Positions 5,278-45,425 of a DNA stretch of 64,000 nt are shown here, piece by piece. The position numbers were made by a program, and so were the translations under genes. Each line of letters opens with the position of its first letter. Positions within the stretch are counted from its first letter, which is position 1. The notes under the pieces are model-generated. The model was not told the origin of the DNA and ran no database searches. It saw only the letters and a list, made by a program, of their open reading frames with translations. Source of the stretch: Prochlorococcus sp. MIT 0701 (GTDB lineage: Bacteria; Cyanobacteriota; Cyanobacteriia; PCC-6307; Cyanobiaceae); contig NZ_JNBA01000020.1 in NCBI RefSeq assembly GCF_000760295.1, positions 1 through 64,000 on the forward strand, given 5' to 3'.

Positions 5278-8200
5278 ATGGATGAACAGCTCGCTTCAGT
5301 AAACTGGTCCTTCGATGCAACTAATAAGGATCATGATGCTGTTCAATATTCTTTTTCTGCTCCAGAGATTATTTATGATTCTTCTTCAGGATCATTAAAT
5401 CAAGATTCTGCTTCAGTTACTCTAGACATTGATGATCAGAAGGCTTCACCTACGTGGCAAAATGCTGAATCTATTTCCTTGCAGCAGCATGAATTAGATG
5501 GTTCGATCCGGAAATTAGCCGGTGATGTCCCTGGCCTTGATGTTGATAATCTCTATAATCCTTCTCCATGGGATTCTCAATTAGTCCTGCATGGATCAGC
5601 TTATAAAGCTCCATCTCTTGAGCAGGGTCTGCATTCTACCGATTTGGATCAATCCCCTCCAGATCCAACTCTTTTAGATGCCCATATTGACTTGTATTTT
5701 GATACTTCAGGCTCTAGTCCGATTGAAGCACCAGGACCAACTCAGGCTCCTCCGGATGCTCTTTCTGGTCTCTACATAAGTGCTGAATCAGATTCATTGC
5801 CTCTGATTTCAAATAATCTTTCTCCTCTTTTAGGAGATGAATTCGCCAGTGATCCTTTTCTTGTTTATCAGAATACAGAGCAACTGACTGACGTTTTGTT
5901 GGAAAAGAATCCAAGTTCAGGCTTGGATGATCAACTTCTAATAGATGCAAAGACTCTTTCTGGTCCTGTTTTAGAGGGAGAGGAGTTTCCTTTTAACCCT
6001 TTGCTTGACTATCAGAATGGCGGTCAAGTTGAGCAAGATGAGCAACCATTACAAGTTGCCCTACAACGCCAAGTGCAAGTCCAGGCGCTTGTGGCTGATG
6101 ATGAAGATCGTAAATTAGATACAACCCAACTCCAACCAGTTGTTGATTTCAGCCCTGAAAATGGGAATGCAACTCTCTCTTCAGTTGGAGACTTCCCAGA
6201 CGTAAAAGATAATCTTGATCTTGATACTTTTAATTGGCGTCCTCTTGATCAAGATGGAGCTCCACAGCTCAATGAGCAGGACTCGCCACTCAACATTCCC
6301 TTCAAGGTTGAAGAGTGGTTTGAAGATAAGACCACGCTCATGCCATTGGGAGAGTATCCACCAACGGCTGACGCCAATGGCCCATGGAGTCTTCGTGCTT
6401 TTTCGTTGCCGGATGTGCCGTCTCCGCCTTTGCCTGACTGGCTTGAGGTGATCCAGATGTCTCCGACTCCAGAGCTTGTCGGAGATGGACGCCTTGTGAT
6501 TAGTCAAACCTTTGAATCTGACCCTACGGATTCAGAGAAGCTCTGGTTAGAGATTCATGTTCAAGATCGCCGATCCGATGGTCGCGGCTTGATCGGCCTT
6601 GAGCTTGATCTCAATTGGGATGCTTCAGCATTGAATTTGATTGTTGATCAAAACCGTTCTGCTCAGGTGTTTGAGCGTAATCATTTGCCTCTTTTTCAGA
6701 GTACAGGCAAGCTCACCACACTCCAGCCAGAAACCAGTAGCGATCTACACCGTGAAGCACTTGTTGGCATCGGCGCTGCTGCGCTCCCCAATGCAGGTCT
6801 TGGTCAGTCGCTTGGCAACCTCCGTTCTTCTGATCCGCAAACGCTTTTCGCCCGCTTAGCATTTCAGGTTGAAGATCCATCTCTGGCTCCTGATCTGCAA
6901 ATGCAGGTCACCATGTCGCCAACGAATGGTGGTATCTCTTTAAATGATCAAGAACTACTTGTTCTTGATGGCCATAGCCCTAATGCTTGGATTCTAAAAG
7001 CTCAGCCTACGCAAGAAGAAGTTGGTAGTTATGCCTTTACTCTCCACCAGGGAGAGATCGACAGCAACCTAACGACTCATTTGGCTGTTGCTGTGACTGA
7101 GGTCAATGATGCACCAGTAGCTTTGACAGATGTTGATATTCCTTCTGAATACTTTACACCTGAGTTGAAGCAGGGACAATCACTCAGTCATGATCTTGCA
7201 CGCCTATTTAGTGATCAGGATGATTCTAGCCTTGCTTACAAACTTGTTTCAGCCCCTAGTTGGTTAGAAGTTGATAGTCAAACGGGTCAACTAATCGGTA
7301 TCCCCAATAATTCTGATGTTGGTAGTTATTCTATTACTGTCATCGCCGATGATGGTCGAGGAGGTACAGCTAAGCAGCAGCTTTTGATTGACGTCAAAAA
7401 CGTTAATGATAGTCCTCAGCTTGATTCCTCAGTATCGATTGTACCTCCAAATCTTATCCAAGGAGAGAGCTTTACTTATAGGTTGCCAGAAGGTGCTTTT
7501 GTTGATCCAGATCTGTCTGTAGACCGAGATGAGCAACTTAACTATCAACTTGTTGCAGCAGAAGGTGATCAATCTCCACCGGCCTGGATCCAGATTGATC
7601 ACGCTAACGGAACCCTTACTGGTACAGCGGGGAGCAAGGACGTTGGTACGAATAGGTTTGTTGTCAGAGCTGTAGACGCGGCAGGCCTTTTTGTCGATCA
7701 ATCTGTCAGTCTTACCGTTGAAAATGTTAATGATACTCCTCACCGCACTCTATTGCTTTCTGAATTCTTGGCGGCTCAGCTGCCTACTGCTCCTGGAGAT
7801 GCTCCCCTAGGTGAGGATGATCCTAATGCATTATTTACAGGCTTAGAGCGAATCATTGATTTAAACACTTGGTTCAATGATCCAGACCTCAATGTCGTGC
7901 CTGGTGAGGAATTAGAACTTCATGTTGAGCTTGATATTGGAACTGGTCAAGCTATTGATTTGGCAGACAATGATCTTTCTCAAGATCAACGACCAGAATG
8001 GCTCAGTTGGGATGAGAATTCAGGTCTGCTAAAAATCAATCCAAGTGTTGGAGAGATTGGTCAGCATATCCTGCGCGTCCGTTCTACGGATTCGGCAGGC
8101 CTTAGTGCATCAGCGATTGTTCCTCTACTTGTTCGTCATCGTAATAGTGCCCCTGTTGTCAGCTTTTCCAGTGCAGAAGATTTTCTTGCCTCTTTGAGGA

Positions 8201-11200
8201 CAGAAGGCGTTAATAGTGCAACAGCAATAACCTCCTCTAAGGACAGTAATCAATCCAATCAACTCAGTGGTTTGCAAATTACAGTGGCTGAGGAGCAAGA
8301 TGTATTGCTGGAACTTCCTCGCTCTCTTTTCTCTGATTCGGATTTGATTGTTAGTGGGTCTGAGAAGCTAACTCTTGAGCTAGAAGGCTCTCCACAACTA
8401 TTTAGGAGGTCTACAGATAATTCTCCCCCTCCCTTTAAATTTGATCCTAAAACATTAACTATAAAAGGTAATACCTCTGGCCTTGGCCTTGATGAGTATG
8501 GCGGATTGAGCCAATGGCAGGTCCGCTTAATTGCTACTGATACTTCTGGTGAATCAGCCAGTTTTGATCTATCACTTAACCTACAGCGCACTTTTGCTAC
8601 CCCTGAGCTTGTAGCTCTAGATGATGTTACTAAGAAACCAGAAGGGTCCCTCGTTCAACTAAATGATCTCGTCAGATTCTCTCTTGATCCACGAGATGGT
8701 GAATTGGTCCACCTCACAATTAAACAGCCGCTAGGAAAACAACAACCATTAAATCTTGTAGAAAGAGCTGGAATTGATGTGGTCAATTCCAGCTATTCCA
8801 GTACTCAACGTCAATGGCAAATTAGTGGATCTGCAGAGCAAGTTAAAGCTGTTATCGATGGTTTGCAATTTAAAGTTCCTGATGATGATCATGCAATCGG
8901 GGATTTTAACTTAGATGTTTCAGTTCAAAGTGAGCTTGGCGATACAGGCCTTGTCTCTGATGTTGTCACTCGTTCTGTAGCGTTCACTCTTGAGCCAACT
9001 GCCAATTCGCCCCTTTGGACAGGCATCACGACTCGAGAGCCTTCAAGCGAAGATTCATTCGAATTGGTCTCTCTAGCAAGCCAGCTATTAGCCAATAGTG
9101 TCGATCCACGCGAACAGCTTAGTTATCGCGTTGAATTGCCAGCTAATCGTCCTGACCTCTTGCTAACTGATCAAAGCGGTGCCGCAATCGGCGAGCGACA
9201 AGGTGATTTACTTTTGCTGAGTTCAAAGGAGTGGCAGTCAGCATGTCTTCGCAGCACAGATGCTGCTCACCAAGATGCTTCTCTGATTGTTGAAGCGATC
9301 AGTACTGAAGCCAGCAATGGCATGCAAGCTTTCTCTTCAGCTAAAACTCTATCTACTAAACCTTGCCCATTTTTAAGCCAACCTCCTGAATTGCTCATGA
9401 TGCCACCATTGGGCATTCAGCGCTCTGGTGAAGAAGCAAAGTTTCAACTTGAACTCAATTTGCCAGATGCTGCAAAGAGTTTGCGATTGCAACTCGACTT
9501 ACCTGTAGATAGCGCTATCAACATTGAAGGAGCTGCAATCAGTTCAGAACAATTGCTTGGTCAGTCAGGAGAAGCTATTGCCGAACGCTTCTTTATTTCT
9601 TTCGATAGCGAACAGCGGCCTCTGCCAGATCAACTTGATTTGGGTATCATAAGTCCTGAAAGTTTTAAAGGTAGTTTTGATGGTCATTTAAGTGTATTGG
9701 CTTCCGCACGCTCTGTACTTAATGACCATATTGATTCCCAAAAGTTGGCAAATGAACTCTCAAATGGACTTGCTTGTGAGGTTGAAAATCTTTCTTTTGC
9801 CTGGGATGTTGCTCAAGTCGCTCTTGTTCCTGAATTCATCACAGAACCACTTGAAGGCGAACCTTCTCTAAGTTTCAACCCTGAAACAGGAGCCCTAATC
9901 GTTACTGTCCAGCGAGGGCTTAGCTCAACAGGTCAGCAGAATCCAAATGAAGACCTTACTCTGGCAGTTATTAATATCCCGCCTGGCTATGTATTAGCAG
10001 AAAAGCTGAACGATACCTTCCAAGCTGTTGGAGCCACAGATGCCTTTGGCACGATGACATTGTTTACCTTGAGTTCTAGTGATACACAGCAAGGCGCTGA
10101 TTCAGTTGGTCATACAACGCTTAATGATGGAAACCTTTTCCTAGTAGCTACAGATAGGAATGCGGTCAGCCTTGATGGTGCTTCTCTGAATCTGGCGCTC
10201 ACTGCCCGTATTAGTAACCAGCCAGGTGGTGATTCTAGATCTGAAACCATTAAGCACCAGCTTAATCTCTCACCCATAAATGGTGGGTTACCTTCTGTAC
10301 AGAGGTTGTCTGCAGCAACACGATTTGTTGACCCTTTGATTCTCGACTTTACAGGCAAGCAAGGCCTGCCTCTTACTTCTTTGGCTAGTGATGGTAGTGG
10401 AGTGAGCTTTGAAATGTTGCCGGATAGCCCTGCCGTACCAACTGCCTGGCTTAAATCAGATGCGAATGCAAATGGCCAATTAAATGCCGGATTCCTTGTT
10501 CTCAACGATATCAGTAATGATTCTGCTAATGCTGATATAAATATCAGCTCTATTAGCGAGCTGCTTTCGGAGTATTTTCAGACAGATAATCGCCAACGTA
10601 GTTTTCTTTCAGGTAGTTCGGCTCTTGCCAGTCTGGATGCTAATAATGATGGACTGATCAATAGCCTTGACTCATCTTGGAATCAGTTGCAGATTTGGTT
10701 CGATGATGGTGATGCAATCAGCGAAGTCGATGAGCTACAACCCCTCAACCAGTTTCTTGACTCTATTGACCTAGACACGCTAATTACACTCGCCGAGCAG
10801 CCTGAATGGGCAGCAGATAATGCTGTGTTGCGTCGCCTAAGTGGTGCCAGTCTTGCTGATCCAGCAGCTATCTACGATCTTTATGACGTCGGTCTTCGTA
10901 TCGCGCCCGCATTTACTGCAAAATTAGACCTTCAATTAGAAGGCATAGAACTTCAGAAAGCTGGCGATTCTGAAGAGATAGCAAATCAAGGAGATCTTGC
11001 AGTTAATAAAATCTCTTTATTGAAAACAAGTCTTGAGCAAGTTACTGATGAATTAACTACAGGCCTTGAATCACGTTTAAGTCGCCTTCATTTACAGGAA
11101 AATGGTAACCCTGTTCCATTGAAGTTAAGAAGCAAGGACAGTGTTAAATGGTCTGAAAATGGCTTGGATGACTTCACTTTGGTGCGCATGTCAGGTTTGC

Positions 11201-14200
11201 CTGCTGAGATTATTCCTTCCGTAGGTGTTCGTGATTCTCGAGGCGATTGGTTGTTTACATGGTCTGAACTAAATGCTAATGAAGGACAAGTCGAACTGAT
11301 CCCCGGTCAAAACTGGAGTGGCAATGCAAATTTGCAGGTTTTAATTAGTCAGTTACAACCTGATGGCTCTTTGCTTAGTTCTGCCCTTACAAGCATGGCT
11401 TTAGATGTTGTGGCAGTTGCTGATCAGCCCTTGCTGCAATTGAACAATGTAACCATCAATGAAGATCAATCCCTAGCCTTGAATCACATCCTTAAGCGAG
11501 CAGAGCTTCTTGATGATGATGGTTCAGAAACCTTGCATTACGAGTTAAGTGCAATGCCAGAGGGAGTTGTATTGCAACGCATGGTGGCTGGTGAAGAACC
11601 GATTGTTTTAGATTCTGAAGACGGTATCTATCGGTTCAGTTCTCAAGATCTCGACGGAGTTGAATTGCTTACTGCAGAAGACTTCTCAGGACTTTTGCAA
11701 TTCAAATGGCATGCTGTTGCAACAGAAGCTTCCAACGACAGTATCAGTCGCACTAGCCAGGATGTCCTGATAACGATTCGAGCGATAGCAGATAAGCCCT
11801 CTGATGTTGTTTACACCGAGTCCCCCCCTGCACTTTTGGAGGGAGGTTCTGTTTCTCTGTCTAGCTTGATCAATCAATCAACTCCTAGTTCAGGGCTTAA
11901 TGACTTAGATGGTTCCGAAGAATTACGCCTTGAGTTCAAGTTGCCCCAAGGCCTTGCATTGAAGCATCAAAGTGATGATGGTTGGCAACCGATTAGCTAT
12001 CTAAATGCTGATGGTGAGCAGATTGTAATGATAAGTGCTGATGATTTTTTAGAGTTGCAACTGGTAGACAAAGGGATAGAGCAAGTCGACAGCTTTAGTT
12101 TGTCTGTCTCAAGTGTCAGTCGCGAGATTAGCAATGGCAAGCTGGCTCGTAGTGAGTCTAAAGAGCTGACTCTTGGTTTTATCCGCAATGCAAGAGCTGC
12201 TAAGATTACTCTTCTAGATTCTCCTACTATTTTAGAAGATACTGATGGGGTAGATCTTAGCGATCTCGTTCAGGTAGTAGCGGCTAATAATAAGGATATC
12301 CTTAGTTATCGCATCTCTGAAATATCAGAAGGCCTCAAGCTCATCGATCCTGATGGTCAGGTTTTTCTACCAGCCAAGCTCAATAATACATTCAATCTGT
12401 CGAGCCTAGATGGTTGGCAATTGCAAACAAATCAACATCAGGCTGGTCAATTTGGTTTTGACCTTGAAGTGATTAGCAAGGCACCTGTGGATGGTGGCAA
12501 GTCAATGACAGTACTAAAACATGTCAACTTTAATGTTAAAGCAGTTGCCGATATGCCAACCCTTCTGCTTGACCAGTCTGAAGGTGAAAAATTACTAATC
12601 GAGAGCAATGGATGGTTGAATTTGAACAACCTAAAACCGATCGTCAGCTCTCCTGATAGTGATCAATCGGAACGCCTTTCTCTTTTGATCGGTGCTCTTG
12701 ATGTTGATGGAGAGCCCGTTAGCCTGCCATCCCATAGCCGCTTTAATGTTCCCGCTCGACAATTAACAGATGGTCGCTGGGAAATTCAAGATGATGATTT
12801 TGATGGTCTCAGTCTCTATCTTGGAGAAATTGCTGATGATCTAACAATTACTTTTACTCCTACATCTCATGATGGGGATGATCAAATTCATGCAGAAATG
12901 ACAACAATTACCGTTGCTGCTAACTCTGTTACCCAGATCCCCCTGCTTGAGGTGCGTGGAGTCATGGAAGGCCTGGAGGATTTACCAATCCCATTACTTG
13001 CTCAATTAGAAGGTGTCATTAATGCTCAGCTACGAGGAAGAGGAGTCGGCCAAACATTAGAATTGGAAATTAGCGGTTTACCTGAAGGCTCTAAGTTTGT
13101 CCGTCTTATAGATGGTGATAGTGATTCTTTGACTTCATCGTATAGCCAACCAGTGAACACCAATAAAGATAATCAACTAACATCAACGTTAAGGTTGCCT
13201 TATGTGCAATGGCAACAAATGCATTGGCTTGGTCCTGCGAACCAGTCTGGCGAATTTAGTTTTAACGTTCAAGCCTTTAGTGTTGGCAAAAATGGCGATG
13301 TCTTGAGTACGGATATGTCAACGGTTAAGGTTTTCTTGACTCAATTCAATGATAAGCCTGAGATTATCGATGACAGTGATCTAAGGGCTATAGAAGAGGG
13401 GGAGAGTGGCCAATGGGATTTGTTATCCCGTTTTAGAGACGTCGACAATAGCAAAAGTGAGCTTTCAATTAGTGTCAACACTCTCGATGAGAATGGAAGT
13501 ATTGGTGAACTACCAGGCTGGCTTAGTCTTAGTTCAGAAGGGATCTTAGCTGGAAGTCCTAGCAATGTAGACGTTGGCATGCTCAAATTCTTGATTACAG
13601 CTAGCGATCCATTAGGTCAAGTAGAAACGATGAAACTTAGCTTGGACGTTGGAGATGTAAATGCAGAGCCAACTTTTAATAAAGCAGCTTTAAGTGATTG
13701 GGACATTGTAAGTAAGGATGGCAATGATGTCTATAGCCGCAGCCTTGACCTAAGGCAGCGAATACTTATAGACCTTGAAAAGGCATTTAATGATGAGGAT
13801 GAAATTAATGGTGATCAACTTACCTACACGTTTAGTGATGGTGCCAACGGATGGAGCTCAGGGTTAGATGGTTTGGCTACTATAAAAGATGGTGAATTGG
13901 TTATTCAGGCTATAGGCAAAGAGAACGTTGGCTCACATTCTCTGCGTCTGCGAGCGACAGATCAAATGGGAGCGAGTATTACAAAAGAGCTGAATATCAA
14001 TGTACTTAATATCAATGATGCACCAATTGTTATACGTGATAATGCCACCCTTGTTCGGGAAGGTGTCTGGGAGGAAAGAGTCCAGGTTGATCAAGATCAG
14101 GAATCTTGGCAGCTTAATCTTGAGGGGCTATTTAGTGATGCTGATATCACTGACCGCATTGACCAGATAACTCCGTCTTTTCTTCCAGCTTGGCTTCAAT

Positions 14201-17200
14201 ACACACCTTCTACATCTACTACTGGTGGAGTACTCAGTGGCAAGCCTGGAAATCGAGATGTTGGTACCACGTCCTTGGAATGGCAGGCGGTTGATGATGC
14301 AGGCGAAGTCGCTACTTATCGCCTTGATCTCGAGGTCGTCAATGTTAATGAGACTCCAGAGGCCATTGCCAACCCTGATTTGTCTGAATTAGGTGTCGTA
14401 CAAAATGGAGTCGCCACTATTGATGAAGACAGCTACTCCCGCCTAGACTTGTCGAAACTATTTACGGATAGCGACAGTATTCATGGTGATTCACTTGCTT
14501 ATGAAATCACAAAGATACTTAAGGAAGGTAGTCAGACTCCGCAGGTGGTTGATTGGTTGGGTATCGAGCATCGCAGCTCGATCACGCCTGACGCTAGTGG
14601 CAAACTTTTGATCGAGCCAGTTTTCTATCGAGTCACTGAATCTGGCACTCTAGGAGATGCTGTCCCCCCTGATGATATAGACAAGCTAGAAAAGAATACA
14701 CTGCTCAGAGTCTTAGTTGAAGCGACAGATGATCGTAATACAGAACTTAAAGGTGTGATTGGTGCTGATCTAGATGTAACATGGAGTTCTGCACTTTCCC
14801 TTGTCAAAGACAGTGCTGTGATTACAAATTCGCTACCTCTATTTCAATCAATTTCTGAAACAACCAATGGTTTGCGTATGAAGGCAGGCTCTGCTCCTGA
14901 TGGAGGATTGTCTATAGGGGAAGCTGTAGGCAATAACCCCAAGGACAGTTTGTTGAGTTTTGATTTACTGCTTAAAGATCCAGATGAAAAAGTTCTTGTA
15001 AGCCTAAATAGAGGAAAGGGGCTTAATCGTGATGGTCTTAATGGACGACTTGGTGAACAGTTTGATTCCGACAATAGTGTTGTCCATTCTTTCTCCAGTC
15101 AGGCTGGTGCTGATGTTCAGGTACTTGCGCCTGAAAATGCTGATGTCGGTAATTATATTGTAACGATTACAGCAACTGATCAGGATGGCAAAAGTGTAAG
15201 CGCAGATGTGCCATTGCTGATTTCCAACACTAATGACGCTCCAGAATTGATAAAGAATGCAGAGAACATCCTTGCCAAATGGCTTGCTGAACAACCTCAT
15301 CTAGAACACAACAATGACACCACTCCTTTGGTTAAATTGTTTAAAGACCAGGATCTGATGCATGGAGATAAACTCGATATAAGGCTTATTGAAGCACCAG
15401 CACAAGATTCTCAGCAGAATGCTGTTGCTAATAGCATTGTAGAAATAACATCCGAAAATAATGGCAATATCAGCCTAAACCTGCAACCGCCTAGAGGCAT
15501 TACAAGTATTTATGAGCAAATGTTCCGCTTAGAAGCTACAGATTCTGATGGTGCTACAACTAATACAGAATGGCTTACTGTTGCAATTACACCGTCTGCG
15601 GAGGCTACTGTTCTTAAAAGAGGCTCTGATAAGAAGATATTAGATTCCCAAACTATCGGTACTATAACTAAGAAGAATATAAATATTGATCTAGGCCAAG
15701 CCTTAAATATTAATGCACCTGAACTAGTTGATCAGGCTGGAGATGAGGCAGAGTTGAGATTTCTTGTTAAGTCAGCAGATGCAAAGTTGGTTCTAGAAGG
15801 CACTGATGATCAGGATTTCTTTGAGGTTAATATTAATGGCAATGGACAATCAATCTTTAGTGTCAGCCTTAACAAGCTACAACAGATTTCTGGCAACACT
15901 TACGGCAATCTAGAGAATCTAAAGCTATTACTAGCTCCCAACCAAATAGAACTTTTGCCTACTGCCTTAAGTGCAAAACAAGTTGGCGGGATTCCTTTGA
16001 AGCTATGGACAACAACTCATGTTAAAGGTGATACTTCCAAACAGTTTGGAGAGATCCAGAGCGATTATTCAGAAATTTGGATCCCTATAGAGAATGCTGC
16101 CCCAACTTTTAGCTCGGTTAAGCCTGTAAAAATTAACCAGGACTTCTTTTCCCAGGATTCCTTCGCTCCAGATAAACCTCTCTTCTCACTCATGAATCAG
16201 TTTGCTGACATTGATTCAGGTGATACTGCTAATTGGCAAATTGAGGTCCCACAAAATTTGCAAGGCATGCTCAAGCTAGATGAGTCCACTGGAGATATCA
16301 GTTTCACAAGCAAAGTTAATTCCTTATCAGATCTACCAGAAGGTAATCATAGGATTATTGTTAGACAGATCGATAGTTCAGGCAGGCTTGGAGATTCAAC
16401 TGGTATTAGCAGTGGAACAGTTCGATTGTTTGTTGCTTCAAGCCATGAGGATGATTCATTAATAGGCGGCTTAGACTTGCTAACTAGAGGCGATGGGGGT
16501 GAACTTAAGCAAATATTTAGTAGGCTTTCAGCAGGTGAAGAACTTAAGCAGCAGGAAGCAGAGGTTGTGGATATTTTTGAAAGGCTTCAGGTAAAAAGTG
16601 ACAAGAGGCAGGAATTTATTGAGGAGTTAGAAAAAGGTTCTTTAGCCATACTTGGCAAGCCAGAGAATGGAGAGCCTCTGTTGTTGCTGGATGCTTCCTA
16701 TGATGACAACAGCTTACTGATTAATTCTGAGCAGAAAGAAGCATCTACAGAACTTTTGGACAAAGCGAAGGACCTGCTCGATAGTCAGACAATCACAGAA
16801 ACACCTATGGGAGAATTGGATTTTTCCATAGATATTCAAGGAGAGAAATCAAGCATCGTTCAGATCCGTCTGGAAAATGGTGGTATGGATATAGATGATC
16901 TTGTAAAAACAACAGCTAGCGGAACTCCTTACTTATTTAATTCTCGCAAGCTAACCTATGACTCTAGCAAGGATGGAGAGATGTCAGAGTGGCTTTCTGG
17001 CCTTGCTTATGATGTGTATTTCTATGGCCTCCCAAATGGATCAAAGGCTAGCTCCTTATCAACTGGCATAAAACTCCGCAAAGAAGATGATTTTTCACAA
17101 GCGTTGTTAAGCCAAGGCTTTAGCAGCGATTACCTGCCACGAATGGATGGATCTGGACTACTGATTGACTTGGACGGAGATAATACTACTGATCTGATTA

Positions 17201-18687
17201 GTATGCTGCTTATTGATCAGGGATTCTTTGATACTGATCAACGCTTAGGAGTTATTGGTGATCCACTGATACCTGTGAAAACCTCTGATCTGACTCCAAA
17301 ATCAGCAGTAACGAGTGGTAATAGTAACGATTTAGGTGTCGGAGTTGGTCAGACCTCTAATAACCGTAGGCGTCAAGATTCTGGATATCCGGACATACAA
17401 GATCCCATCGATACTTCTCAAGATGCAACTAGCAATCCACAAAATCAGGCTACTTCTTCTCAAGATGCAACTAGCAATCCACAAAATCAGGCTACTTCTT
17501 CTCAAGATGCAACTAGCAATCCACAAAATCAGGCTACTTCTTCTCAAGATGTAAGTAGTGATGATCCACAAAATCAGGCTACTTATTCTGAAGAAATAGA
17601 TGATTCTTCAATTTCTGATGAGGAATTTATAAATGATCAAGCTAGGACTTCTAATTCTAAGTCTTCACTACCATCAGGATCGCCGCAAGGCGTTAAGCCC
17701 GACAATAGATCAATTAATAACAGCATTGGGAATCGATCCATGCAGAGTTCAAATTCCTCAAACTCTTTGAGCGGCTTGACCTCAGATAACCTCAACAGTA
17801 ATAGAAGTTCTGAGTCTCTTGCTTCCGAGCAGGAACCAGATGGTTCATTACAAACAAATGATGAATCACTAGCCTCTCAAAATCAAGCAGTAAAAGCACA
17901 ACGTACCAATGCATTGTTCAACAATTCATTAGCATCGGTACAAGACTGGATGCAAGCCAGAAAGGAAGACGCTCTAGGGGCTATCAATTCATTGATGGCC
18001 CCTATTGAAGATTCCAATCAAGCTTCGATGGCAGGAGCTATCGCACTGCTATTAGCTCCAATACTAGGTGAAAGACTGCTAACAAATACTGCAAAAGCTA
18101 TGGATACTAATATTACGTTAAAGTTACGGCGACGAGGTGAAAACTTTAAAGGTATTTGGACTATGCCTACACGTGATGGCCGATTCATTTCTATCAGTAA
18201 GGATTGCTCCGCTCTTGATTTTAATCCTATAGATATATCAGAAACAGATACGATGCAGATTCAAATGCTTCCTGGCTTTAATTCAAATGGAAACTCGCTA
18301 TTAAGCCTTGCCATGCCTCTGATGCGAAGTCCAGGTAGATTCATACATTCAGTACAAGCTTTATCTCAAGAACTGGTGAATAATCCAACCCCAGATATTA
18401 ATTGGGATGATTGGATCAATCGCTCATTTAGCCAGCATACTAGGAATGGAGACCAGCCTCGCGAAGCTAAAAAAGCTTTGACTGAACTGCGACGACTTGT
18501 TGATCAAGCGATTCAGCAAGACCCTGCTTTCGCAGACGTTGTAATGCTAAGCCAACTTCATGACTGCAATTCTCTGCTTGGATTATCAACTAAGCCTCAT
18601 GCAGACCCTTCTAGTAAAACTTATTCCGACGTTGTTCCTGATCAAGATGTTGGGAAAGCTATTACCTCATCTAACTCCGCAAAATGA
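5278..18687 (+). CDS. Giant 4469-residue modular surface/secreted protein
   Basis: One uninterrupted frame of 13.4 kb. No classical signal peptide. Visible modules: a cohesin-like domain near residues 420-580 (GLIGLELDLNWDASALNLI, then HLPLFQS) and a similar one near 3140-3270 (GVIGADLDVTW, then SLPLFQS); several cadherin/putative-Ig repeats of the form PSWLEVD..TG.L.G.P...DVG.Y...V.A.D..G ending in NVNDAP (near 650-960, 2740-3030 and 3290); a block near 1684-1822 like the calcium-binding domain of RTX-type exported giants (PLILDF, DANANG, then LDANNDGLINSLD and IWFDDGD); and DLDGDN near 3960. After 4015 comes a Ser/Asn/Gln-rich stretch with 42-bp repeats, a hydrophobic segment (GAIALLLAPILGERLL) near 4250, and a basic C-terminal domain of unknown type. 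No GGxGxDxUx nonapeptides were seen. Giant adhesins of this build usually leave by type I secretion, and such an operon follows 56 bases downstream. Adhesion or cell-surface matrix is an inference. Confidence 0.88.
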   Translation: MDEQLASVNWSFDATNKDHDAVQYSFSAPEIIYDSSSGSLNQDSASVTLDIDDQKASPTWQNAESISLQQHELDGSIRKLAGDVPGLDVDNLYNPSPWDSQLVLHGSAYKAPSLEQGLHSTDLDQSPPDPTLLDAHIDLYFDTSGSSPIEAPGPTQAPPDALSGLYISAESDSLPLISNNLSPLLGDEFASDPFLVYQNTEQLTDVLLEKNPSSGLDDQLLIDAKTLSGPVLEGEEFPFNPLLDYQNGGQVEQDEQPLQVALQRQVQVQALVADDEDRKLDTTQLQPVVDFSPENGNATLSSVGDFPDVKDNLDLDTFNWRPLDQDGAPQLNEQDSPLNIPFKVEEWFEDKTTLMPLGEYPPTADANGPWSLRAFSLPDVPSPPLPDWLEVIQMSPTPELVGDGRLVISQTFESDPTDSEKLWLEIHVQDRRSDGRGLIGLELDLNWDASALNLIVDQNRSAQVFERNHLPLFQSTGKLTTLQPETSSDLHREALVGIGAAALPNAGLGQSLGNLRSSDPQTLFARLAFQVEDPSLAPDLQMQVTMSPTNGGISLNDQELLVLDGHSPNAWILKAQPTQEEVGSYAFTLHQGEIDSNLTTHLAVAVTEVNDAPVALTDVDIPSEYFTPELKQGQSLSHDLARLFSDQDDSSLAYKLVSAPSWLEVDSQTGQLIGIPNNSDVGSYSITVIADDGRGGTAKQQLLIDVKNVNDSPQLDSSVSIVPPNLIQGESFTYRLPEGAFVDPDLSVDRDEQLNYQLVAAEGDQSPPAWIQIDHANGTLTGTAGSKDVGTNRFVVRAVDAAGLFVDQSVSLTVENVNDTPHRTLLLSEFLAAQLPTAPGDAPLGEDDPNALFTGLERIIDLNTWFNDPDLNVVPGEELELHVELDIGTGQAIDLADNDLSQDQRPEWLSWDENSGLLKINPSVGEIGQHILRVRSTDSAGLSASAIVPLLVRHRNSAPVVSFSSAEDFLASLRTEGVNSATAITSSKDSNQSNQLSGLQITVAEEQDVLLELPRSLFSDSDLIVSGSEKLTLELEGSPQLFRRSTDNSPPPFKFDPKTLTIKGNTSGLGLDEYGGLSQWQVRLIATDTSGESASFDLSLNLQRTFATPELVALDDVTKKPEGSLVQLNDLVRFSLDPRDGELVHLTIKQPLGKQQPLNLVERAGIDVVNSSYSSTQRQWQISGSAEQVKAVIDGLQFKVPDDDHAIGDFNLDVSVQSELGDTGLVSDVVTRSVAFTLEPTANSPLWTGITTREPSSEDSFELVSLASQLLANSVDPREQLSYRVELPANRPDLLLTDQSGAAIGERQGDLLLLSSKEWQSACLRSTDAAHQDASLIVEAISTEASNGMQAFSSAKTLSTKPCPFLSQPPELLMMPPLGIQRSGEEAKFQLELNLPDAAKSLRLQLDLPVDSAINIEGAAISSEQLLGQSGEAIAERFFISFDSEQRPLPDQLDLGIISPESFKGSFDGHLSVLASARSVLNDHIDSQKLANELSNGLACEVENLSFAWDVAQVALVPEFITEPLEGEPSLSFNPETGALIVTVQRGLSSTGQQNPNEDLTLAVINIPPGYVLAEKLNDTFQAVGATDAFGTMTLFTLSSSDTQQGADSVGHTTLNDGNLFLVATDRNAVSLDGASLNLALTARISNQPGGDSRSETIKHQLNLSPINGGLPSVQRLSAATRFVDPLILDFTGKQGLPLTSLASDGSGVSFEMLPDSPAVPTAWLKSDANANGQLNAGFLVLNDISNDSANADINISSISELLSEYFQTDNRQRSFLSGSSALASLDANNDGLINSLDSSWNQLQIWFDDGDAISEVDELQPLNQFLDSIDLDTLITLAEQPEWAADNAVLRRLSGASLADPAAIYDLYDVGLRIAPAFTAKLDLQLEGIELQKAGDSEEIANQGDLAVNKISLLKTSLEQVTDELTTGLESRLSRLHLQENGNPVPLKLRSKDSVKWSENGLDDFTLVRMSGLPAEIIPSVGVRDSRGDWLFTWSELNANEGQVELIPGQNWSGNANLQVLISQLQPDGSLLSSALTSMALDVVAVADQPLLQLNNVTINEDQSLALNHILKRAELLDDDGSETLHYELSAMPEGVVLQRMVAGEEPIVLDSEDGIYRFSSQDLDGVELLTAEDFSGLLQFKWHAVATEASNDSISRTSQDVLITIRAIADKPSDVVYTESPPALLEGGSVSLSSLINQSTPSSGLNDLDGSEELRLEFKLPQGLALKHQSDDGWQPISYLNADGEQIVMISADDFLELQLVDKGIEQVDSFSLSVSSVSREISNGKLARSESKELTLGFIRNARAAKITLLDSPTILEDTDGVDLSDLVQVVAANNKDILSYRISEISEGLKLIDPDGQVFLPAKLNNTFNLSSLDGWQLQTNQHQAGQFGFDLEVISKAPVDGGKSMTVLKHVNFNVKAVADMPTLLLDQSEGEKLLIESNGWLNLNNLKPIVSSPDSDQSERLSLLIGALDVDGEPVSLPSHSRFNVPARQLTDGRWEIQDDDFDGLSLYLGEIADDLTITFTPTSHDGDDQIHAEMTTITVAANSVTQIPLLEVRGVMEGLEDLPIPLLAQLEGVINAQLRGRGVGQTLELEISGLPEGSKFVRLIDGDSDSLTSSYSQPVNTNKDNQLTSTLRLPYVQWQQMHWLGPANQSGEFSFNVQAFSVGKNGDVLSTDMSTVKVFLTQFNDKPEIIDDSDLRAIEEGESGQWDLLSRFRDVDNSKSELSISVNTLDENGSIGELPGWLSLSSEGILAGSPSNVDVGMLKFLITASDPLGQVETMKLSLDVGDVNAEPTFNKAALSDWDIVSKDGNDVYSRSLDLRQRILIDLEKAFNDEDEINGDQLTYTFSDGANGWSSGLDGLATIKDGELVIQAIGKENVGSHSLRLRATDQMGASITKELNINVLNINDAPIVIRDNATLVREGVWEERVQVDQDQESWQLNLEGLFSDADITDRIDQITPSFLPAWLQYTPSTSTTGGVLSGKPGNRDVGTTSLEWQAVDDAGEVATYRLDLEVVNVNETPEAIANPDLSELGVVQNGVATIDEDSYSRLDLSKLFTDSDSIHGDSLAYEITKILKEGSQTPQVVDWLGIEHRSSITPDASGKLLIEPVFYRVTESGTLGDAVPPDDIDKLEKNTLLRVLVEATDDRNTELKGVIGADLDVTWSSALSLVKDSAVITNSLPLFQSISETTNGLRMKAGSAPDGGLSIGEAVGNNPKDSLLSFDLLLKDPDEKVLVSLNRGKGLNRDGLNGRLGEQFDSDNSVVHSFSSQAGADVQVLAPENADVGNYIVTITATDQDGKSVSADVPLLISNTNDAPELIKNAENILAKWLAEQPHLEHNNDTTPLVKLFKDQDLMHGDKLDIRLIEAPAQDSQQNAVANSIVEITSENNGNISLNLQPPRGITSIYEQMFRLEATDSDGATTNTEWLTVAITPSAEATVLKRGSDKKILDSQTIGTITKKNINIDLGQALNINAPELVDQAGDEAELRFLVKSADAKLVLEGTDDQDFFEVNINGNGQSIFSVSLNKLQQISGNTYGNLENLKLLLAPNQIELLPTALSAKQVGGIPLKLWTTTHVKGDTSKQFGEIQSDYSEIWIPIENAAPTFSSVKPVKINQDFFSQDSFAPDKPLFSLMNQFADIDSGDTANWQIEVPQNLQGMLKLDESTGDISFTSKVNSLSDLPEGNHRIIVRQIDSSGRLGDSTGISSGTVRLFVASSHEDDSLIGGLDLLTRGDGGELKQIFSRLSAGEELKQQEAEVVDIFERLQVKSDKRQEFIEELEKGSLAILGKPENGEPLLLLDASYDDNSLLINSEQKEASTELLDKAKDLLDSQTITETPMGELDFSIDIQGEKSSIVQIRLENGGMDIDDLVKTTASGTPYLFNSRKLTYDSSKDGEMSEWLSGLAYDVYFYGLPNGSKASSLSTGIKLRKEDDFSQALLSQGFSSDYLPRMDGSGLLIDLDGDNTTDLISMLLIDQGFFDTDQRLGVIGDPLIPVKTSDLTPKSAVTSGNSNDLGVGVGQTSNNRRRQDSGYPDIQDPIDTSQDATSNPQNQATSSQDATSNPQNQATSSQDATSNPQNQATSSQDVSSDDPQNQATYSEEIDDSSISDEEFINDQARTSNSKSSLPSGSPQGVKPDNRSINNSIGNRSMQSSNSSNSLSGLTSDNLNSNRSSESLASEQEPDGSLQTNDESLASQNQAVKAQRTNALFNNSLASVQDWMQARKEDALGAINSLMAPIEDSNQASMAGAIALLLAPILGERLLTNTAKAMDTNITLKLRRRGENFKGIWTMPTRDGRFISISKDCSALDFNPIDISETDTMQIQMLPGFNSNGNSLLSLAMPLMRSPGRFIHSVQALSQELVNNPTPDINWDDWINRSFSQHTRNGDQPREAKKALTELRRLVDQAIQQDPAFADVVMLSQLHDCNSLLGLSTKPHADPSSKTYSDVVPDQDVGKAITSSNSAK
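8766..8794. repeat. Perfect inverted repeat, 12-bp arms
   Basis: AGCTGGAATTGA (8766-8777) and TCAATTCCAGCT (8783-8794) are separated by five bases, inside the giant gene. A 12-bp perfect arm this close is not expected by chance in 64 kb. Confidence 0.85.
10525..10557. repeat. Interrupted inverted repeat, 14 bp paired
   Basis: GCTAATGCTGATAT (10525-10538), a two-base AA turn, then ATATCAGC, a three-base bulge TCT, and ATTAGC (to 10557). It lies in the giant gene just before its EF-hand-like calcium segment. Confidence 0.75.
17419..17589 (+). repeat. 42-bp in-frame tandem repeats in giant gene
   Basis: Three identical 42-bp units at 17419-17460, 17461-17502 and 17503-17544, then a diverged 45-bp fourth unit to 17589. 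Each unit encodes QDATSNPQNQATSS. The perfect identity means recent expansion, and the unit length keeps the frame, so copy number can change without breaking the protein. The repeat forms a flexible polar linker between the calcium-binding part and the C-terminal hydrophobic segment. Confidence 0.95.
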
Positions 18688-26491: not shown

Positions 26492-28003
26492 ATGGCTGAG
26501 GACTCAATCATCGTGATCGGGGGCGGCATTGCCGGCCTAACGGCAACAGCCCTCTTAGCCAAGCAAGGATTACCCGTCACCCTGGTGGAAGCCCACCATC
26601 AACCTGGAGGTTGTGCCGGCACCTTCAAGCGAGGTCCCTATATTTTCGATGTAGGTGCCACTCAGGTTGCCGGCCTAGAACCCAGTGGCAGCCATGAACG
26701 CATCTATAGGCATCTCAACCTGCCCATGCCACAAGCGGAGCTACTCAATCCCGCTTGTGCAGTTGATCTCGCCGACGGATCCCAACCCATTCAGCTCTGG
26801 CATGATCCAAAGCGCTGGGAACAAGAATGGCGATATCACTTCCCTGGCAGTGAGGCCTTCTGGGCTCTGACTGCCAAGCTCCACCAAAGCAACTGGGGCT
26901 TTGCCAGCCATGATCCGGTGGTCACACCCCGCAACGCTTGGGACTTAGGCCAACTGCTTCAGGCGCTGCGTCCAGCCACACTCCCCTCAGGGCTATTAAG
27001 CAGCCTGACAGTGGCAGATCTCTTAAAGCTATGCGGCTGTGCGCAGGATCAGCGCCTTCGCAAATTCCTAGATCTCCAGATCAAGCTCTATTCGCAAGAA
27101 CCGCTCGATCGCACAGCGGCCCTCTATGGAGCCACCGTGCTGCAAATGGCCCAAGCACCTCTTGGGCTTTGGCATCTGCAGGGATCGATGCAAAAACTCA
27201 GCGATGATCTAATGCATGCCCTGAAGCGCGATGGCGGCCAGATATTGCTGCGCCATCGTGTGGTGGGCCTAGAAGTAGCAGAGCGGGGCATGGGTTGGAC
27301 AGTCAGCATCAAAACCCCCAATGGCAAGGCTTTGGAACTGACCACAGCAGATGTGGTCTTCAGCCTGCCACCTCAATGCCTGAGCTCGCTGATGCCACCA
27401 GGAGCAGGCATGCCCAAGGCCTATCGCCAAAGGCTGGTGCAATTACCTCAACCCAGTGGGGCTTTGGTGTTCTACGGGGCCCTCGATCGCAGCGCCCTGC
27501 CTAAAAACTGTCCTGTCCATCTGCAAAGAGCCTCCAAGACACCCGGCTCCCTGTTCGTATCAATCAGCCGTGAGGGAGATGGCCGTGCTCCCGCTGGTCA
27601 AGCCACACTGATTGCAAGTGTGTTCACCGCCACAGCAGAGTGGTGTGGGCTAACTGAATCCACCTATCAAGAACGCAAGCAAATGGCCCTGTTAGCCATC
27701 CGCCAAACACTTGAAAGTTGGTTAGATCTCGCTCCTGAAGATTGGCAGCATCAAGAACTAGCCACACCAAGGAGCTTTGCAAATTGGACTGGTCGGCCCA
27801 ATGGAATTGTGGGTGGCCTTGGGCAGCACCCTTCACAATTTGGGCCCTTCGGACTAGCAAGCCGCACCCCCATGCGAGGGCTCTGGCTCTGTGGCGACTC
27901 AATTCACCCTGGTGAAGGGACTGCAGGGGTGAGCATCTCGGCACTCATGGCCTGTCGCCAGCTCATGGCTCAGCGAGGTCATCAGTTACGGGTGGCGAAT
28001 TGA
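26492..28003 (+). CDS. crtD: FAD-dependent carotenoid desaturase-like protein (CrtD/CrtI family)
   Basis: 503 residues. The N-terminal dinucleotide-binding motif IVIGGGIAGLTATALLAKQG is followed by E in VTLVEAHHQPGGCAGTF, and the C-terminal FAD motif reads GLWLCGDSIHPGEGTAGVSISALMACR. This is the layout of phytoene-desaturase-type flavoproteins. Cyanobacterial members with this opening include the C-3',4' desaturase CrtD and the carotene isomerase CrtH; the annotation as CrtD is the more likely by overall resemblance but not certain, because myxoxanthophyll-type pigments are not general in this clade. The 3' end overlaps the convergent tyrA by 41 bases. Confidence 0.72.
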   Translation: MAEDSIIVIGGGIAGLTATALLAKQGLPVTLVEAHHQPGGCAGTFKRGPYIFDVGATQVAGLEPSGSHERIYRHLNLPMPQAELLNPACAVDLADGSQPIQLWHDPKRWEQEWRYHFPGSEAFWALTAKLHQSNWGFASHDPVVTPRNAWDLGQLLQALRPATLPSGLLSSLTVADLLKLCGCAQDQRLRKFLDLQIKLYSQEPLDRTAALYGATVLQMAQAPLGLWHLQGSMQKLSDDLMHALKRDGGQILLRHRVVGLEVAERGMGWTVSIKTPNGKALELTTADVVFSLPPQCLSSLMPPGAGMPKAYRQRLVQLPQPSGALVFYGALDRSALPKNCPVHLQRASKTPGSLFVSISREGDGRAPAGQATLIASVFTATAEWCGLTESTYQERKQMALLAIRQTLESWLDLAPEDWQHQELATPRSFANWTGRPNGIVGGLGQHPSQFGPFGLASRTPMRGLWLCGDSIHPGEGTAGVSISALMACRQLMAQRGHQLRVAN

Positions 28004-28880
28004 GGTCGTCGTTGGCAGCAACAAGAAAGCTGGGTCGCAGTGCCTGGGAACGTTCCAGTTCAGCCTTTAACTGCGACCAGTGCCCATTCAAAACGGCCTC
28101 CTCAAGCTGCTCCAAGCTCCAGCGATAAGCAGCCAAACCACGCAAGATCGCTGCGGTATTGCTCTCCGCCATAGATGTCCCCAACTGGGGATTACCACCA
28201 CCCACCCTGGTGGTATCAGCAAAACCACTAGAAGACAGCACTCTGGCTAGTTCGCGAACAGCAGGATCACGCTCCTCACCCACTGTTCGTAGCAACGCAG
28301 CACTCACCAGCACAGGCAGGTGGGAAATCAGCGCCACCGCTTGATCATGGTTAGCTGCATCCGCCGTAAACCATTGACTGCCCAAAGACAGCGCACATCG
28401 ACGCACCAACTCGAGCGCCTCAAGGTCTGTTTGATTGTCAGGTGTCGCTACCCAAGGACGTTGCTGAAATAAGCCCCGCAGCCCTGCTTCCACTCCTGCT
28501 TCAGCGGTGCCTGCCATGGGATGGCTAGCCACAAAGCGGGGGTGTAGGTCGCGCCAGAGCTCTAAAACAGGCATCTTCACTGAACCAACATCAGTCACCA
28601 CAGCAGCTGCAGGCAAAGCCTTTAGGAGATCCGGATCTGGATTGAGCAGTTGAGCCAAAGGCAGCGCCAGGATCACCAAATCACAATCCGCGAGAATGCC
28701 CGGATCGGTGCTCACAAAGTGAGCCAGCCCCCTAGCGCGAGCCCTATCAGCGGTACTGGAGCGATGCACCAGACCATTGACCTTCCAACCAAGCGCCTGC
28801 AGGTCCAATCCCAAGGAGCCACCAATCAGCCCAAGCCCTACGACTCCAGCGCAAAGTGATGGTTTTTTGTTCTGCTCCAT
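27963..28880 (-). CDS. tyrA: Prephenate/arogenate dehydrogenase
   Basis: 305 residues from ATG 28880; an in-frame ATG at 28907 would add nine residues but lies inside an inverted repeat. The N-terminal NAD(P) fold shows VGLGLIGGSLGLDL, then LVILALPLAQ and VVTDVGSVK. The catalytic region has SHPMAG and, later, HDQAVALISHLP, typical of TyrA, followed by a helical dimerisation domain (SSGFADTTRVGGGNP). It makes the last step or steps of tyrosine synthesis in the cytoplasm; cyanobacterial enzymes usually act on arogenate with NADP. Tail-to-tail overlap with the desaturase gene. Confidence 0.93.
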   Translation of the reverse strand: MEQNKKPSLCAGVVGLGLIGGSLGLDLQALGWKVNGLVHRSSTADRARARGLAHFVSTDPGILADCDLVILALPLAQLLNPDPDLLKALPAAAVVTDVGSVKMPVLELWRDLHPRFVASHPMAGTAEAGVEAGLRGLFQQRPWVATPDNQTDLEALELVRRCALSLGSQWFTADAANHDQAVALISHLPVLVSAALLRTVGEERDPAVRELARVLSSSGFADTTRVGGGNPQLGTSMAESNTAAILRGLAAYRWSLEQLEEAVLNGHWSQLKAELERSQALRPSFLVAANDDLNSPPVTDDLAEP

Positions 28881-28902: not shown

Positions 28903-28930
28903 TCCATGTTGATCGACCAATCAACATGGA
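28903..28930. promoter_or_regulatory. Perfect 11-bp inverted repeat in a divergent promoter region
   Basis: TCCATGTTGAT (28903-28913) and ATCAACATGGA (28920-28930) flank six bases. It sits between the divergent starts of tyrA (28880) and the DinG-like gene (28966), a suitable place for a shared operator. No known cyanobacterial regulator consensus was recognised: it is not GTA-N8-TAC and not a LexA box. Regulatory function is inferred from position and symmetry only. Confidence 0.5.
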
Positions 28931-28965
28931 GCTTTCTCGGGTTTACAGCTTCCTAGGCTCTCGCA

Positions 28966-30411
28966 ATGCTCGAAGCCCGCAGCCATCAGCAGCTCAAGCA
29001 CCTGCTCCTGCAGAACTCCTCTCCCTGGCCTCATCACCTCACTTTGAGCCGTCTTGTTGCCCGCAGTCTCAGGCGCAAAGATCACACCCTGATCCAGCTC
29101 GACCCTCGTAGCAAAGACCTCTGGTGGCTTGGTCTGCTGGTTCCTCTCTGCCTGGAGGCCAATGATGCTGTGATGATCCTTTCCGATCAGCAGCGACGGC
29201 GACTCCTCAAGGTAGAACTGCCACAACTGCTGACGAAAGGCATCAAACTCCCCTGCTGGGAAGGGCACCTTCCGCCCTCAGGGAATCAACTGTGGTTGAT
29301 GAACCACAGTGAGTTGATTGAGGCACACCACCAGGGGCATCTCAAATCAAGGCAGTTGATCATTCCAGAAGCAGACCAACTAAGCCAGCGATTAAGGGAC
29401 AGCATGGCTTTGTCGATCACACCTCAAGACTGGGAGCGTTTGCGGCGGGCACATCCTTCTGCGGAGGCTTCCCTCATGCAACTGCACGAACGATTAAGCC
29501 GCAGCCTGTTTACTCACGCCACCCGAGCCAATGCCCAGGTTCGCCTTGATGGCAGCGAAATTCAGGCTCTCAAAGATCTCATGCGACTTCTAGGCCCCTC
29601 ACCTTCCCCTTGGCCTGCAGTACTGAAGGCCGATAGCCGTTTTTGGGCAAGCTGGGCCGAACTCGATCACCGACTACTGCAATGGCAATGGCATCTACAG
29701 CCGCTCGAACCCCTTCAAAATCTTCCAGGTCTGTTACGAGACCAGCCGTCTGTCCTGCTGAGCGGATCAAGGGAGAACGATCTCGTCCGAACTGAGTTGG
29801 ACGCTGCAGCATTTCCTGCCACCGTCATGGCCACATTGAGTGAACCCAACCTGCAGGAACCAATACCTCTTTTTGCACCGCGCCGCCAACCACTACCGAA
29901 TACCGAAATCTATGCAGAGCATCTGCTCGATCAATGCCGTCGTCTGATCCTGGGACGTCCTGGCATCACTGTGGTGTTACTTGATGATCAGCAACTCCGC
30001 CGCCAACTCACAAGTGAGTTGGCGGCGGAGTTTGGACGCAGAGTCGTTCATGAAACCACCGCTCCGGAATCCAACGGTGTTGTCTGTTGCCGCTGGACTT
30101 GGTGGCTTCATCACCAGGATCAACTGCCTCTCCCAGAACAACTAATCGTGGCTTTACTTCCCCTGGCGAGCGTAGAGTCACCACTCACAGCAGCAAGAGT
30201 AGAATCCCTCAAGAATCAAGGTCGTGACTGGTTCCGAGACCTTCTCTTGCCTGAAGCTCTCAGCCTGCTAACACCAGCGATAGCTCCACTCCGAAAGAAT
30301 CACGGACGACTGGCAATCCTGGACGGACGTCTACGAGGACGGAGCTGGGGGAAGCAAGTACTGAGCACCATCGAACCCTGGACACCCCTGCAACGCCTAT
30401 TACCGGATTAA
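28966..30411 (+). CDS. DinG-like protein without recognisable helicase motif I
   Basis: 481 residues. The C-terminal part (NQGRDWFRDLLLPEALSLLTPAIAPLRKNHGRLAILDGRLRGRSWGKQVLSTI) resembles the end of DinG/XPD-type superfamily 2 helicases, where RDY-LP-A...GR-IR....G....D-R is conserved. Upstream, DPRSKDLWWLGLLVPLCLEANDAVMILSDQQ sits where ATP-binding motifs belong, but no GxGKT/S Walker A and no DEAH box are visible. It is therefore a degenerate or nuclease/helicase-derived protein; similar short forms occur in marine picocyanobacteria. Function unknown. The gene contains two long inverted repeats (29284-29319 and 29993-30032). Confidence 0.65.
   Translation: MLEARSHQQLKHLLLQNSSPWPHHLTLSRLVARSLRRKDHTLIQLDPRSKDLWWLGLLVPLCLEANDAVMILSDQQRRRLLKVELPQLLTKGIKLPCWEGHLPPSGNQLWLMNHSELIEAHHQGHLKSRQLIIPEADQLSQRLRDSMALSITPQDWERLRRAHPSAEASLMQLHERLSRSLFTHATRANAQVRLDGSEIQALKDLMRLLGPSPSPWPAVLKADSRFWASWAELDHRLLQWQWHLQPLEPLQNLPGLLRDQPSVLLSGSRENDLVRTELDAAAFPATVMATLSEPNLQEPIPLFAPRRQPLPNTEIYAEHLLDQCRRLILGRPGITVVLLDDQQLRRQLTSELAAEFGRRVVHETTAPESNGVVCCRWTWWLHHQDQLPLPEQLIVALLPLASVESPLTAARVESLKNQGRDWFRDLLLPEALSLLTPAIAPLRKNHGRLAILDGRLRGRSWGKQVLSTIEPWTPLQRLLPD
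29284..29319. repeat. Interrupted inverted repeat, 14 bp paired
   Basis: AATCAACTGTGGTT (29284-29297), loop GATG, AACCAC (29302-29307), four extra bases AGTG, then AGTTGATT (29312-29319). Fourteen base pairs with one four-base bulge, inside coding sequence. Confidence 0.8.
29993..30032. repeat. Perfect inverted repeat, 19-bp arms, 2-base loop
   Basis: AACTCCGCCGCCAACTCAC (29993-30011) is followed by AA and then by its exact reverse complement (30014-30032). It encodes QLRRQLTSELAAEF in the DinG-like gene. In mRNA this is an extremely stable hairpin; in DNA it could extrude as a cruciform. Confidence 0.97.
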
Positions 30412-44969: not shown

Positions 44970-45425
44970 ATGACTACTCTTCGACTCGACTCTCTCAAAG
45001 CCAACGCAGGTGCAAGACGCCGCAAAATGCGTAAAGGTCGCGGCATTGCCGCTGGCCAAGGAGCAAGCTGTGGTTTCGGCATGCGTGGCCAAAAGTCCCG
45101 CTCTGGTCGCCCTACCCGCCCTGGCTTCGAAGGCGGGCAGATGCCTCTCTATAGGCGCGTACCCAAACTCAAACACTTCACCACAGTGAACTCAAAAGAG
45201 TTCACTGTGGTGAACGTAGCGGCCCTCAATGAACTCAAGACGGGTAGCACAATCAATCTAGACACCCTTGTCAAAAGTGGTGTTGTCACTAGTCCCAAGC
45301 ACCCTTTAAAGGTACTTGGCAATGGAGAGCTCAAAGTCAAGCTGACCATTCAGGCCGCTGCATTCACCACTACAGCCCGCAACAAGATCGAAGCCGCTGG
45401 CGGCACATGCGAAATCCTTGACTGA
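44970..45425 (+). CDS. rplO: Ribosomal protein L15
   Basis: 151 residues from ATG 44970 ([25 protein letters not shown]). The Gly-rich [18 protein letters not shown] and [19 protein letters not shown] segments are diagnostic. It is a late-assembly 23S binder. Residues 70-82 ([13 protein letters not shown]) are encoded by a perfect 17-bp inverted repeat (45177-45214). Confidence 0.98.
45177..45214. repeat. Perfect inverted repeat, 17-bp arms, AAAA loop, inside rplO
   Basis: TTCACCACAGTGAACTC (45177-45193), AAAA, and the exact reverse complement (45198-45214). The hairpin lies wholly in the L15 reading frame. Its strength is far beyond chance for a conserved gene. Confidence 0.97.

Follow-up and report, generated by a model that had tools for sequence, protein, structure and literature searches.

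The question raised by this locus is whether the exact palindrome lying between tyrA and its divergent neighbour is an operator. The initial annotation had proposed that it could bind a dimeric helix-turn-helix regulator controlling tyrosine synthesis and a DinG-like gene. We addressed this in the window, i.e. the whole stretch of 64,000 nucleotides analysed, and in related genomes.

A palindrome between two divergent genes

The presence of an exact dyad in a divergent promoter region was confirmed, with tyrA on the minus strand, the dinG-like gene on the plus strand and two 11-nt arms set 6 nt apart between them (TCCATGTTGAT-CGACCA-ATCAACATGGA, arm complementarity 100%). The features concerned are the following.

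27963..28880, minus strand: tyrA, prephenate/arogenate dehydrogenase (NF005650, 431 bits vs. a cut-off of 290; PF02153, PF20463)
28903..28930, no strand: perfect dyad of 11-nt arms and a 6-nt spacer, defined by its sequence and by the same place in relatives
28903..28913, no strand: tyrA-side arm, ATCAACATGGA on the minus strand, containing CAACAT; kept also where the dyad is absent
28914..28919, no strand: spacer, NGGTNN on either strand in 8 of 16 dyad lineages, four per direction
28920..28930, no strand: dinG-side arm ATCAACATGGA, complementary to the other arm in dyad lineages and different in marine Synechococcus
28966..30411, plus strand: divergent gene, 481 aa, with no Pfam match and a C-terminal likeness to DinG/YoaA

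The name DinG-like proved apt for about the last 80 residues of the divergent product and not for the rest: the likeness, to the C-terminal region of DinG/YoaA helicases, is confined to residues about 391-473 and scores far below the family cut-off. The program-made list of reading frames placed the tyrA start at 28907, within the palindrome. In three relatives (L020, L022 and L024), stops interrupt that frame after the palindrome and before the ATG corresponding to 28880; we therefore took the ATG at 28880 as the start of tyrA and the palindrome as non-coding. The ATG within CAACATG was rejected as a tyrA start, being in frame in some relatives only, by reading.

Five perfect dyads with arms of at least 11 nt and a spacer of at most 8 nt were seen in the whole window, the one upstream of tyrA among them; 30 first-order Markov resamplings gave 0.2 on average and never more than 1. 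Long dyads are thus in general excess in the window, one even falling within the dinG-like gene, as would be expected if the tyrA dyad were a chance palindrome without any role. Because of this excess, length alone is no proof of function and the comparison with relatives carries more weight.

The palindrome inside the dinG-like coding sequence (29993-30032) is perfect, its 19-nt arms being separated by 2 nt; G003 has a nearly perfect form and G001 a more broken one. At 45177-45214, a reading frame of 185 aa in the list is overlapped by a perfect dyad whose 17-nt arms are 4 nt apart. Elsewhere in the window, a single reading frame of 4469 aa occupies 5278-18687 on the plus strand.

The palindrome has no regulon

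The dyad was described in the initial annotation as matching neither NtcA nor LexA sites, which is the case for the NtcA consensus, GTA-N8-TAC. It is also the case for the LexA box, a 14-mer resembling AGTACWNWTGTACT, the cyanobacterial consensus as it stands in the excerpted text of PMC3091678. The CRP consensus, TGTGAN6TCACA in the excerpt of PMC2633013, did not fit either, the halves flanking N6 being TTGAT and ATCAA here. Literature matches listed for the sequence words of the dyad were all unrelated sequence papers, and none of those listed for tyrA, palindromic sites or footprinting in cyanobacteria concerned this site by title.

A search for the half-site elsewhere in the genome gave a negative answer. 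In exact form, the 14-base pattern TGTTGAT-N6-ATCAACA occurs once in the window, and the count for the genome is likewise one. Allowing at most one mismatch, we counted 7 sites with the N6 spacing vs. 4 and 2 for the shifted-spacer controls N9 and N3, respectively; with at most two mismatches the counts were 49, 36 and 29. The six one-mismatch N6 sites lie inside long reading frames (five) or at a contig end (one). A backward-read control gave 5 sites, a number that is too low because of composition. A regulon of the half-site was rejected, since the N6 count shows little excess over the shifted spacers. The other genomic occurrence that an operator of this kind might have was accordingly wanting, with a single exact copy and no further regulatory site. 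Among 300 genomes of the family, 18, including this one, hold the exact pattern; it is located at tyrA in six of these (G000, G001, G003, G005, G015 and G078), whereas most sites in the remaining genomes fall within or next to reading frames or have unrelated locations. As the dyad is not a shared regulatory site elsewhere in the genome, it is probably confined, as a local element, to a single promoter.

A local element could still be an operator. A dimeric regulator would then bind TTG-N10-CAA, cover the tyrA -10/-35 region and repress tyrA, and might, from about -49, also reach the promoter of the dinG-like gene. The exact symmetry of the site and its position between two divergent promoters are consistent with this, while the lack of a second genome site beyond the shifted-spacer controls argues against it. 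So does the distribution of regulators. We searched 40 genomes, many of them incomplete, for the TetR, MerR and GntR families; 19 of these have the dyad and 21 do not, under a looser sorting than that giving the 16 dyads described below, which also admits G003, a near copy, as well as G066 and G086, whose dyads are displaced or unanchored. TetR_N was found in none of the 40 genomes, incomplete as many of them are, MerR_1 in four, of which one is among the 19 with the dyad, and GntR as a single copy in each of 34, irrespective of the dyad. None of the three families tracks the dyad in this set.

The dyad recurs at one place in related genomes

Relatives were found by their TyrA protein and the region upstream of tyrA was read. 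Loci were aligned on similarity of the tyrA-side arm alone, to avoid choosing them by symmetry. We counted the 31 Prochlorococcus-type loci with a fair anchor; nine of 40 non-Synechococcus rows were dropped for a weak anchor (L030, L031, L032, L034, L036, L213, L216, L224 and L226), and L017 was dropped as a near copy of L016. Conservation in related strains was borne out, with dyads having at least 5 of 6 core pairs in 16 of the 31 loci. At a score of at least 7, 16 dyads occur at the register, where 0.37 would be expected by the rate in other parts of these loci; at a score of at least 9, the figures are 10 and 0.05. This background is mostly coding DNA and to that extent a weak control. In most dyad lineages, the centre lies about 72-80 bases before the GxGxxG codons. 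This large excess at one register also fits a local operator.

The letters of the dyad vary between lineages. The site is identical in the near relative G003, but reads CCCTATGTTGATTG-GT-CAATCAACATAGGG in G005, AATTTTGAT/ATCAAAATT in G018, ATCTTG/CAAGAT in G062 and G076, and TGTTGAA/TTCAACA in G104. G152 has a dyad with 13-nt arms holding TGATGA/TCATCA, and G017 a palindrome containing TATTGAT/ATCAATA; the arms reach 14 nt in G005 and G078 and 18 nt in G017.

About half of the lineages have no dyad, which does not favour a local operator. Ten more Prochlorococcus-type loci outside the counts (L182-L185, L188, L189 and L192-L195) had no intact dyad at the register by reading, and by reading likewise the freshwater-type loci (L035, L038-L045) had none. 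In 24 Synechococcus-type loci without the perfect dyad, the arm on the tyrA side remains ATCAACAT or close to it, while the opposite arm is different; ten Synechococcus-type loci (L197-L206) were judged by reading alone. On a TyrA tree of 51 rows, drawn without 14 near-identical Synechococcus-type rows, 14 changes are required to explain the dyad label vs. 15.7 in shuffles, so that its presence is not clearly clustered on this poorly supported tree (12 of 48 inner branches starred).

Other dyads were seen upstream of tyrA. One of the weakly anchored loci outside the counts, L224, has a perfect 26-bp palindrome, AATAGTTGATCTATAGATCAACTATT, which is also TTG-N10-CAA. Two Synechococcus-type loci have a different dyad, GATGGCTCATTGCGAGCCATC in L149 and a shorter form in L143, at nearly the same distance from tyrA. 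The spacing is shorter in the dyads of L036 and L195, two loci from one genus (g17), which read AGTTGTCAAAGACAACT and TAGTTGTAAAAACAACTA, respectively; the centre in L036 is nearer tyrA than in most other lineages.

The arms change together

To see whether the arms co-vary, we considered columns 12-20, which played no part in calling dyads. Across the 31 loci, each left arm matches its own right arm at 3.61 of 8 positions vs. 2.41 of 8 for the right arms of other genomes. None of 5000 permutations reached this value (z 5.8), whereas registers shifted by 1-4 bases gave |z| up to 1.8. Complementarity of the arms thus reaches 20 bases from the centre, in the true register only, with letters that differ between lineages. 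Recurrence at one place and covarying arms in distant lineages contradict a chance palindrome, which we consider very improbable.

The core itself is free to change if it remains paired: column 8 is GC in 11 of the 16 dyads, AT in two, CG in two and TA in one, with no mismatch. Nearly all 16 dyads keep the TTG-N10-CAA spacing and core, and most keep TTGAT-N6-ATCAA, a constancy that would suit a local operator but is partly one of construction, because the dyads were called on pairing of the core columns with rows in one register. Both the freedom of column 8 and pairing up to 20 nt from the centre, outside an ordinary operator, also speak against a local operator. On this evidence, we regard such an operator as possible but doubtful.

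The spacer also differs between lineages. GGT at one offset occurs in 8 of the 16 dyads, four in each direction, where chance would give about 0.02 per locus and direction. The spacers of the sisters G000 and G001 differ by three transitions, which could explain this pair, so that inversion of the spacer is suggested only.

Compensatory changes in many lineages would also be expected of an RNA hairpin in the mRNA leader of either tyrA or the dinG-like gene, its stem affecting mRNA stability or translation. The dyad folds far better than shuffles on both strands (z -5.3 and -4.4, respectively, on the minus and plus strands), and L215 keeps the stem despite a shortened loop. In stem columns 2-12 of the 16 dyads, however, departures of the G-U type number 7 on the tyrA strand vs. 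12 on the other, giving no RNA signature on the tyrA strand. Moreover, no conserved -10 was read upstream of the dyad on that strand and no Rfam family matched at a sensible score, one chance-level match lying elsewhere in the window. An RNA hairpin therefore seems unlikely to us.

The tyrA-side arm as a putative promoter element

Two putative promoter elements were identified by reading.

28906..28911, minus strand: putative tyrA -10 hexamer CAACAT (CAANAT in relatives), the sole conserved -10-like hexamer by reading
28954..28959, plus strand: putative -10 TAGGCT of the dinG-like gene, with TANNNT forms at a like place in several relatives

A scan for consensus sigma-70 promoters and terminators found neither a sigma-70 promoter at this region nor a terminator, and CAACAT is a poor -10 match. 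In the loci read, there is no conserved TANNNT on the tyrA strand, either upstream of the dyad or between the dyad and the start codon, which makes CAANAT the best -10 candidate. Judged from the sequence, CAANAT would most likely be the -10 of tyrA.

A possible origin of the symmetry

The palindrome probably acts on one promoter and not as the operator of a regulon. The explanation we favour, tentatively and at somewhat less than even chances, is that an inverted repeat has been inherited at the core promoter of tyrA, its arms being re-matched in each lineage by template switching while the tyrA-side arm was held by function. The latter would be kept most likely as the -10 region (CAANAT), and the opposite arm would be repeatedly re-matched to it, lineage by lineage. 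We infer template switching as the cause because, in the excerpts of PMC8604942 and PMC8794818, switching between short inverted repeats homogenises arms and inverts spacers; here it would account for homogenised arms, extended stems and an occasional spacer inversion. Re-matching of the arms would lead to conserved symmetry although the letters change.

Template switching alone has one difficulty, in that so strong a preference for one place is not expected of a purely mutational process; the excess at one register points to additional selection for symmetry. The retained TTG-N10-CAA spacing, which fits a protein dimer, also counts against our explanation. Selection may thus also act on the symmetry itself, whether by way of a protein dimer or of a structure. 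In an extreme form, symmetry rather than sequence would be the conserved trait, with a hairpin or cruciform dyad, kept by template switching, that gates tyrA, perhaps together with its divergent neighbour, and needs no dedicated regulator; this we consider improbable.

Globally, the locus illustrates that a palindrome with the looks of a textbook operator need not be one. Where a small genome encodes few regulators, arm-to-arm copying beside a constrained promoter box may preserve a palindrome. If the symmetry is functional, tyrosine synthesis in an abundant marine phototroph would have a control point independent of any regulator, and the covarying alleles would form a natural series for testing.

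Comparison with known systems

The tyrA dyad shares with the operators of dimeric helix-turn-helix proteins (CRP/NtcA, LexA, TetR and GntR types) its dyad symmetry, its place at a promoter and half-sites about one helical turn apart (here TTGAT-N6-ATCAA). Unlike them, it has no regulon, its letters vary while pairing is kept, its complementarity extends to 20 nt, and no matching regulator was found among the TetR, GntR and MerR families searched. With the hairpin-associated minute inversions of plastid spacers, as described in the excerpt of PMC2903610, it shares a short loop found in both orientations between perfect arms; those inversions occur even within species, whereas the spacer of the tyrA dyad differs only between species. 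The template-switch studies, in the portions of PMC8604942 and PMC8794818 consulted, concern yeast coding genes and RNA genes, in contrast to the Prochlorococcus promoter region considered here. The template-switched inverted repeats described in those portions (PMC8604942, PMC8794818) resemble the tyrA dyad in their perfect arms that change together, in the extension of these arms and in a spacer found in both directions.
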